In this document: one piece after another, positions 20,652 to 23,040 of the stretch
Numbering within the stretch: position 1 is the first letter of the stretch
Layout: every line of letters starts with the position of its first letter
Assembly: GCA_017469275.1 (NCBI GenBank)
Contig: JAFUGT010000119.1
Span: forward strand, 1 to 37,861
DNA from: Lachnospiraceae bacterium
GTDB lineage: Bacteria > Bacillota > Clostridia > Lachnospirales > Lachnospiraceae
Direction of reading: 5' to 3'
DNA: 37,861 nucleotides
The notes under the pieces: model-generated
The model's database searches: none
Told to the model about the DNA's origin: nothing
Seen by the model: only the letters and a program-made list of their open reading frames with translations
Translations under genes and position numbers: made by a program

Positions 20652-22079
20652 TTACACTGTCCCATGTTTTTTCAAAGGTCTGAAATCAGCCTTTGTATAA
20701 AGCATTTCAAATGCAGCAATAAGTCTCTTTCTTGTCGCTGCACCATCAATTATATCATCAACATATCCACGCTTAGCAGCTGCCATAGCACTTGACATTT
20801 TATCCGTATATTCCTTTGTCAGCTCAGACAGTTTGCTGTTATCAAACTTTGAACCGGCTAAATCATCTGCATACATGATCTTAACTGCCGCCTCAGGATC
20901 CATTGTACCGATTCTTGCAGTTTTCCATGCATACTCTATATCAGCACCAATCGACTTGGAATTCATAGCAAGATAAGCACTTCCGATTCCGTCGCCCATT
21001 ACAAGATTAACCTTAGGAATATCTGCGTTGGCAAATGCAAATGTGAGTTTTGCAGAAGCCTTGGCAATAGTTGCCTCTTCACCTATTGTAGCCTTAAACC
21101 CTTTGACATTCGTAAGAGTAAGTACAGGAATATTAAATGAATCAAGGAAATTTACGAACTCAGCAGCGATATATGCTCCGGCTGTCGAAAGAACGCTTCC
21201 TCCATCAGATACCTGATTGGCAACACATCCAACGGTTGTTCCTCCAAGCTTGATAAGACCTACAACCATATCCTTTGCATAATCCTTCTTAAGCTCGATA
21301 AATACGTTATTATCTGCGATATTAGCAAGAACTGCTCTCGCATCATCTTCAAGACTTTCAAGATTAGGAATCTCTCTGTTGAGATCATCCGTTACATCAG
21401 AATAATTAGAATCATCTTCATTATTAGAAGGAAGCATTGCTATCACCTGACGGATTCTTCCTAATAGTGACGCTTCATCTTCTAACACTTCATCAACAAC
21501 TGCGCTTTTTCCTGCCTGATAATCAGCAGATGCAGTATCTAATTTCTCGGCATAGTTGCCATCTAACGCATTAGGGCTATTAACAAATAACTTTGCGCTA
21601 TCCTTAACCATAAATGTAATATCTGACAATGCAGGAATAAATGCACTACCGCCACCACAGACACCAAATACACCTGTTATCTGAGGAATAACTCCGGAAG
21701 CCACTGCCTGCTTAGCAAAAATATTACCAAACGCATTAAGGGAATCTGTTGCCTCCTGTAATCTAAGTCCGGCACAATCGATAAGACCGATAACCGGTGC
21801 ACCCATCTTAAGTGCCATATCATAAATTCCGGAAATCTTCTTAGCATGCATCTCACCAATAGAACCGCCAAGCACCTTGGCATCCTGGCTGTAAACAAAG
21901 CAAAGTCTTCCATCAATCGTACCATAACCAGTGATAACACCATCTTTAGGCGTATCCTGATCATTCATGTTGAAATCAGTACTTCTCGATGTAACATAAG
22001 CGCCAACTTCAACAAAGCTACTGTCATCAAGTCATGAAGCTATTCTGTCACTTGCTGACAACGTTGTTTTACTGCTCAT
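20652..22079 (-). CDS. 12S/MmdA-like acyl-CoA carboxyltransferase, interrupted by in-frame TGA
   Basis: A carboxyltransferase of the acetyl/propionyl-CoA carboxylase beta family, close to MmdA and the 12S subunit of transcarboxylase. Blocks such as VYSQDAKVLGGSIGEMHAKKI, GAPVIGLIDCAGLRLQE and TGVFGVCGGGSAFIPAL bind the acyl-CoA and biotin. The natural start is ATG 22079 with GGAGGG 6 nt upstream; translation gives MSSKTTLSASDRIAS, then TGA (22032-22034, codon 16), then LDDSSFVEVGAYVTSRSTDF and on in frame to the stop at 20652. The part after the TGA opens with ATG 21968 (438 aa), which has no RBS, and no other start codon lies between. Thus the gene is either broken near its start, read through, re-initiated, or mis-sequenced. 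First gene of the operon. Confidence 0.88.
22032..22034 (-). other. In-frame TGA at codon 16 of the carboxyltransferase gene
   Basis: Frame arithmetic from ATG 22079: (22079-22034)/3 = 15, so TGA is codon 16. The downstream ATG at 21968 is codon 38 of the same frame. In homologues as I remember them the segment reads Arg-Ile-Ala-Ser/Ala-Leu-Leu-Asp-Asp, so the TGA sits at a Leu position (TTA to TGA is one change). The following base is C, a weak context for UGA termination. Confidence 0.9.
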
Positions 22080-22110
22080 TTCTAGCCCTCCGTTTAAATA
22101 TTTATTGACA

Positions 22111-22128
22111 GGTCTGCAACCGCAAACC
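22111..22128 (-). other. Hairpin in the leader of the decarboxylase operon
   Basis: A 7-bp stem (one G-T pair) with a GGTT loop lies between the promoter and the RBS of the carboxyltransferase gene. It has no T-run, so it is not a terminator. It could stabilise the mRNA or affect translation; nothing more can be said. Confidence 0.4.
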
Positions 22129-22146
22129 AAATTTTAGCCAATGTAT

Positions 22147-22175
22147 ATTCTATTACTTTCTAATTGGGATTGCAA
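22147..22175 (-). promoter_or_regulatory. Promoter of the decarboxylase operon
   Basis: On the minus strand TTGCAA (22170-22175), 17-nt spacer, TAGAAT (22147-22152). Transcription would start near 22140, giving a leader of about 60 nt ahead of ATG 22079. This supports 22079, not 21968, as the designed start of the first gene. Confidence 0.65.
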
Positions 22176-22243
22176 GTGTGAAATGAAACAAATTATCATT
22201 AGATTTTCTATTATTTTGTATAGATATGAATAAAAGAATCAGA

Positions 22244-22290
22244 CAAAAAAAGACAGGGCAAGAATATATGAATTATATAATTCTCTCCCC
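22244..22290 (-). terminator. Terminator after the TIGR03936-like gene
   Basis: An interrupted stem (CCC/GGG plus a 6-bp AGAAT-rich block, 22256-22265 with 22280-22289) spans the stop codon of the gene and is followed on the minus strand by TGTC and seven T residues (22245-22251). Confidence 0.5.
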
Positions 22291-23040
22291 GGTCTCTAAC
22301 AAAGAAACAAGGTTATTATCTTCATTTTTGTAGTAGGTTTCTATTCTGTGAATATGGTAATCAAACTTATTGTATTCCACTCCCGCTTCATTACACAAAG
22401 CTTCAAGAACGGATTCCGGTTTCAGATTATATTCACTGCCTGTGGCAAGGAACATATATATATTATCTTTCCTTACTTCAAGTTTGTATATCCCCTTCTT
22501 GATATCTTCAACTTTCTCGTTTTTCTTTGTTTTTCTGAAGACCTCTATAGTTTCCTTTTCAAGTAAATAAGGAACAACTTCAAGAATTTTCTTCTTTTTA
22601 TCTGCGATATCGGACACTTTCCTCTTTTCGGTTTTGTTATCATCAGTAAAATCCAAGTCGTCCTCAGACTTAAATGTGATTACATAATCAGATGCCGCTA
22701 CAATCGACATAGCCTTCTTTGCCTTTTCCGGAAGAAGGATCACATCTTTCACGTACACACCATCGACCATCTGCTCGTTGAATTTTCTAACAAATTCATC
22801 CGAAGGAATAAGACTGTTGAACTGCGCATCAAAATACTCTCCTTCACTGGTAACTCCAAGAGCAAGTGGAGCTGCAAAGGACATTAACTGGTGGGGCGAA
22901 TAGCCCTGTGAATAAGCAATATCAAAGTCGGCGCGTTTCACGGCTTTCTGAAAGAAACGCATCAGGTCCAAATGTCCTATATATTTTAGAACACCCATCT
23001 TCGCATATTTAATTCTTATCTTATATGTTTCTTCACTCAT
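22273..23040 (-). CDS. TIGR03936-type radical-SAM-associated protein (DUF2344)
   Basis: A 255-aa cytosolic protein beginning with IRIKYAKMGVLKYIGHLDLMRFFQKAVKRA and continuing YSQGYSPHQLMSFAAPLALGVTSEGEY, the pattern of the DUF2344/TIGR03936 family. The family is regularly encoded next to a TIGR03960 radical-SAM protein, as here, and a tRNA/rRNA-related role has been suspected, but the biochemical function is not established. GAGGAG lies 6 nt before ATG 23040. The usual downstream partners in related genomes (rng, rplU, rpmA) are not found: a terminator and an unrelated operon follow. Confidence 0.88.
   Translation of the reverse strand: MSEETYKIRIKYAKMGVLKYIGHLDLMRFFQKAVKRADFDIAYSQGYSPHQLMSFAAPLALGVTSEGEYFDAQFNSLIPSDEFVRKFNEQMVDGVYVKDVILLPEKAKKAMSIVAASDYVITFKSEDDLDFTDDNKTEKRKVSDIADKKKKILEVVPYLLEKETIEVFRKTKKNEKVEDIKKGIYKLEVRKDNIYMFLATGSEYNLKPESVLEALCNEAGVEYNKFDYHIHRIETYYKNEDNNLVSLLETGERII

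Follow-up and report, generated by a model that had tools for sequence, protein, structure and literature searches.

An in-frame TGA sixteen codons into an otherwise open gene can be read as a wrong base, a fresh nonsense mutation, a codon that ribosomes pass or a stop behind which translation begins again. Which of these readings applies is the question raised by a carboxyltransferase gene on the minus strand (positions 20652 to 22079) of the window analysed here, the whole 37,861-nucleotide stretch of a Lachnospiraceae contig. The gene, 475 codons plus a stop, opens with ATG at 22079-22077, followed by 14 further codons and then by TGA as codon 16 (22034-22032, minus strand), in a column that is leucine in nearly all relatives read. 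In the window translation the frame after this codon stays open until the TAA ending at 20652, and codon 16 is the sole premature stop, as the initial annotation had described. Intact proteins of five relatives (472-475 residues, 91-95% identity) align across the stop, and on the alignments this continuity is more than chance.

The identity of the interrupted gene is clear at the level of the family. The frame of 438 codons that begins at the first start codon past the TGA (20652 to 21968, minus strand) matches the carboxyl transferase domain PF01039 with 359.1 bits against a curated cut-off of 22.3, which is also passed by P0001, an intact relative of 475 residues (387.6 bits, positions 5-491 of 493). 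P0001 also matches the solved chains 3n6r, 1vrg and 1on3 across nearly its full length and resembles PF01039 subunits of biotin-dependent decarboxylases and acyl-CoA carboxylases, of which the window carries an interrupted copy. P0001 falls below the cut-off for mmdA, the methylmalonyl-CoA decarboxylase alpha subunit (TIGR01117; 443.6 versus 998.8 bits). Two more carboxyltransferase-like genes, of 39% and 34% identity, are found in the genome.

The interrupted gene is the first of an operon whose four downstream members are intact and lie on the same minus strand: a decarboxylase gamma-like subunit (PF04277, 19706 to 20632), a biotin carboxyl carrier protein (PF00364, 19307 to 19678), a sodium-pump decarboxylase beta subunit (PF03977 and, over its cut-off, TIGR01109; 18141 to 19271) and an oxaloacetate decarboxylase alpha-like subunit (PF00682, PF02436 and, over its cut-off, NF008985; 16630 to 18093). 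When the neighbours in the window were compared with the proteins of five relatives, a stop inside a gene was found only in the carboxyltransferase gene. The other flags were set aside by hand: they concern open reading frames lying across larger genes, on the opposite strand or in a different frame, and in one case a stop upstream of the start of the gamma subunit. The gamma-like subunit is itself long, with 308 amino acids (306-319 in complete relatives); its OAD_gamma match lies in the C-terminal part, a weak DUF3887 match in the N-terminal part stays below the cut-off, and its start looks lipoprotein-like by eye.

Where translation begins was examined on both sides of the TGA. A GGAGG ribosome-binding site (22087 to 22091, minus strand) lies 7 bases 5' of ATG 22079 and is present with identical spacing in all five close relatives checked, in support of the start assigned initially. 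The strong promoter that had been proposed along with it is unsupported, and we rejected it: both strands of 21900-22300 contain three promoter-like sites, against 1.6 (s.d. 1.5) in shuffled sequences, and only one of the three is upstream on the strand of the gene, with 9 of 12 matches. Between the TGA and ATG 21968 a scan for in-frame ATG, GTG, TTG, CTG or ATH found no start codon, and no usable ribosome-binding site precedes ATG 21968; both had been stated before and both hold.

These observations bear on re-initiation, by which ribosomes restarting at ATG 21968 would make a working protein of 438 residues. ATG 21968 is the first in-frame start past the stop, and what follows it still matches PF01039. 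Against this reading stand the lack of a usable ribosome-binding site and the column of ATG 21968, where just 28 of the 62 public loci that can be read have methionine. The 37 residues that would be lost also cover positions 5-41 of the PF01039 profile and include R12, I13, L16, L17, D18, F22, E24 and G26, which are among the invariant columns in an alignment of 20 of 120 listed proteins. ATG 21968 was rejected as the normal start on the first two of these grounds, and a functional product by re-initiation is quite improbable.

Codon 16 was also compared across relatives. A scan of public genomes yielded 63 loci, and in all 62 that reach codon 16 (L049 is cut off before it) the codon is a sense codon: leucine in 59, phenylalanine in two and methionine in one. 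Within the genus, a search of 26 genomes that included the present one turned up 24 close loci outside it (L067-L090), and the 23 that reach the codon, all but L090, have leucine there (18 TTA and 5 TTG). From this count paralogue rows of 31-39% identity were excluded, among them genome G020, which has paralogues only; several genus genomes are identical to genomes of the public set, so that the two counts overlap. At the protein level, column 16 is leucine in 118 of the best 120 of 3,532 matches, the other two lacking the motif. None of these 120 listed proteins exceeds 92% identity; the protein database is clustered at 90%, and independent copies of the same species' allele are therefore invisible there. 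Of the five closest among eight relatives compared, four read TTA at codon 16 and the fifth TTG. As far as these alignments reach, the TGA differs by one base from a conserved leucine codon and is private to this genome among those compared, where private refers to a sampling of a single genome for each species and to a public scan from which very near records may be missing. A stop conserved at this column, as expected for programmed read-through or recoding, was found in none of the 62 public and none of the 23 genus loci, and the TGA is most probably not a programmed recoding signal. Sense codons in the relatives are compatible with a sequencing error and with a recent nonsense mutation alike.

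The state of the gene around the stop limits the age of the lesion. Against the five closest relatives dN was 0.042-0.057 and dS 0.79-1.03, a range that leaves out L009 (saturated dS) and L017 and L018 (different length). Counting columns where the other five agree, and without L008, which is three codons shorter, the branch of this genome carries five private amino-acid changes to 14 synonymous ones; the same ratio in the five relatives was 1:17, 5:22, 3:12, 10:21 and 15:26. Signs of an old pseudogene, namely relaxed constraint and extra lesions, were not found, and 5:14 is within the range of the five intact relatives. By rough arithmetic, which depends on the tree used for the private changes, a neutral phase would occupy at most about 2% of the branch with the five changes counted, or 4% if 13 are assumed. 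Since the gene has not decayed, the stop is recent, or it is wrong, or the product is still made. The last of these corresponds to functional read-through, in which some ribosomes insert an amino acid, probably tryptophan, at the UGA and the gene stays active. It draws on constraint before and after the stop: across codons 17-37, the differences from the five relatives are synonymous in 5 of 5, 5 of 6, 6 of 6, 6 of 8 and 6 of 7 cases. This mostly synonymous pattern fits a recent stop, a wrong base and a continued product equally, and a recent origin accounts for the constraint just as well as read-through does. Since the stop is absent from every relative examined, a functional role for read-through is disfavoured.

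The literature offers read-through a general precedent. Belinky et al. (2021, PMC7918605) describe genes that have a dN/dS below 1 despite an in-frame stop as widespread in bacteria, and another study (PMC11126739) gives UGA as the most read-through stop in Escherichia coli reporters, decoded mostly as tryptophan. On the base after the stop, the latter study reports that T favours termination and G read-through in the E. coli reporters, cites earlier experiments in bacteria that found termination favoured by T and C, and names C as the leakiest context for mammalian cells. The leaky UGA-C site suggested in the initial annotation is accordingly a weak argument, and TGAC ends 12 of the 110 TGA-terminated open reading frames sampled in this genome. 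No transfer RNA with a UCA anticodon was seen among the 18 tRNA genes found, which speaks weakly against read-through in a set that is incomplete and has no tRNA-Trp either. Rfam families gave no match around the site at E values up to 1, and an RNA element at the TGA was rejected. Taken as a whole, read-through is unlikely. A more elaborate form of it, in which the UGA would be a real strain-level switch that keeps carboxyltransferase output low while the rest of the sodium-pump operon is active, is very doubtful.

That UGA might be selenocysteine or a reassigned sense codon has nothing in its favour beyond the in-frame TGA itself. TGA terminates 110 of 363 sampled open reading frames of at least 150 amino acids in the genome; in the window the figure is 7 of 25, with no TGAC among them. 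The gene for release factor 2, prfB, was found with a score above its cut-off and has an in-frame TGA early in its sequence. The CTTTGAC stretch near the start of this prfB (L250:1451-1600) resembles the known release factor 2 frameshift site. The 110 TGA-terminated frames and prfB thus support the earlier view that the code is unchanged, and a changed genetic code was rejected. For selenocysteine, the best match to tRNA-Sec (RF01852) scores 40.9 against a threshold of 47 bits and falls on a tRNA-Ser gene called by ARAGORN, in an assembly that is 82.6% complete; cysteine, expected at the column of a selenoprotein, is absent from the 62 public and 23 genus loci, as is TGA. With no tRNA-Sec over the cut-off in this incomplete assembly and no cysteine among the loci read, selenocysteine was rejected as well; either form of recoding has a negligible probability.

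A consensus or assembly error is a serious candidate. The assembly is a draft of 182 contigs, with completeness 82.6 and contamination 3.5, and is probably metagenome-assembled, to judge from its nearest relatives, whose titles say so or name uncultured isolates. The lack of decay in the carboxyltransferase gene is what an error would leave. On the other side, the TGA is about 15.8 kb away from the nearest contig end, and the window contig has no excess of private amino-acid changes. In 7 of its 16 genes (four or more genomes each, with codon 16 excluded and 15 multi-change codons unclassed) there are five amino-acid against 154 synonymous private changes, the lowest ratio of seven genomes; the six others have 1:10, 4:63, 6:19, 6:68, 5:102 and 6:120.

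The rest of the genome was compared with that of a relative, G002, using open reading frames of at least 100 amino acids and matches of at least 60% identity, with overlapping frames removed (a count before this removal, 12 flags in 122 matches, is superseded). In this sample 143 frames of G002 match the present genome, which has interior stops in the form of the codon-16 TGA, a TAA on contig C71 and a TAG close to the end of C95. Two more flags fall at gene ends, one at a gene start (L151, TsaE-like by eye) and one in a C-terminal tail (L150). The reverse comparison, also of 143 matches, revealed no interior stop in G002; its three flags each fall on a first or last codon. A third comparison, with four other relatives, gave 24 matches and a single flag in a C-terminal tail. 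Interior stops in 2 of 143 versus 0 of 143 matches do not differ significantly (Fisher P=0.50). The TAA lies in a uracil-5 methyltransferase-like gene (L128:13161-14777, at about 93.6 kb of C71), where G002 has glutamate; no stop was marked in this gene in other genomes, although many matches start near the column and some may not cover it. On C95 (L244:6828-7177) the TAG is about 65 bases from the end, and the 21 residues after it differ from G002 at four positions, which is probably an assembly artefact. A stop together with four differences within the last 22 aligned residues, on another contig of the same assembly, lends some weight to an error at codon 16 too.

Taken together, the TGA is very probably one of two things: a nonsense allele of very recent origin or an error in the consensus. 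Of the four options listed in the initial annotation, sequencing error and recent nonsense mutation survive, and read-through and re-initiation are disfavoured. Between the two survivors we slightly prefer the nonsense allele, which comes close to an even chance; a wrong base in the draft, the other half of this joint explanation, is a substantial possibility. What speaks against a real loss is that the gene is constrained and that relatives keep the frame open. A nonsense allele would cut short, at 15 residues, the product of the gene that heads a biotin-dependent sodium-pump decarboxylase operon. If it is real, ribosomes would start at ATG 22079 and halt at codon 16, accidental read-through or restarting would yield little full-length protein, and the downstream subunits may continue to be produced from starts of their own.

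The closest parallels are ordinary ones. Short-lived in-frame stops in bacterial genes, as discussed by Belinky et al. (PMC7918605), are alike in being single nonsense codons in a constrained frame; that paper concentrated on stops common to two or more species, whereas the codon-16 TGA is found in one assembly. A literature search found no paper that combines premature stops with assembly errors in metagenome-assembled genomes. The programmed frameshift of prfB, a gene that this genome also has, shares an in-frame UGA early in the gene. Its signal is widely conserved and shifts the frame. The codon-16 TGA, by contrast, lacks conservation, and the reading frame after it is the same as before. 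The observation of the codon-16 TGA is accurate but of an ordinary kind, and its main use is as a warning: before recoding is put forward for a single in-frame stop in a draft genome, the site should be checked against relatives. The close relatives are assemblies of uncultured Lachnospiraceae or Clostridia, with roe deer rumen named as the source in the title of one, and the carboxyltransferase is intact in all five compared. If the nonsense allele is real, one carboxyltransferase of a sodium-pump decarboxylase is dispensable to a strain of this lineage.
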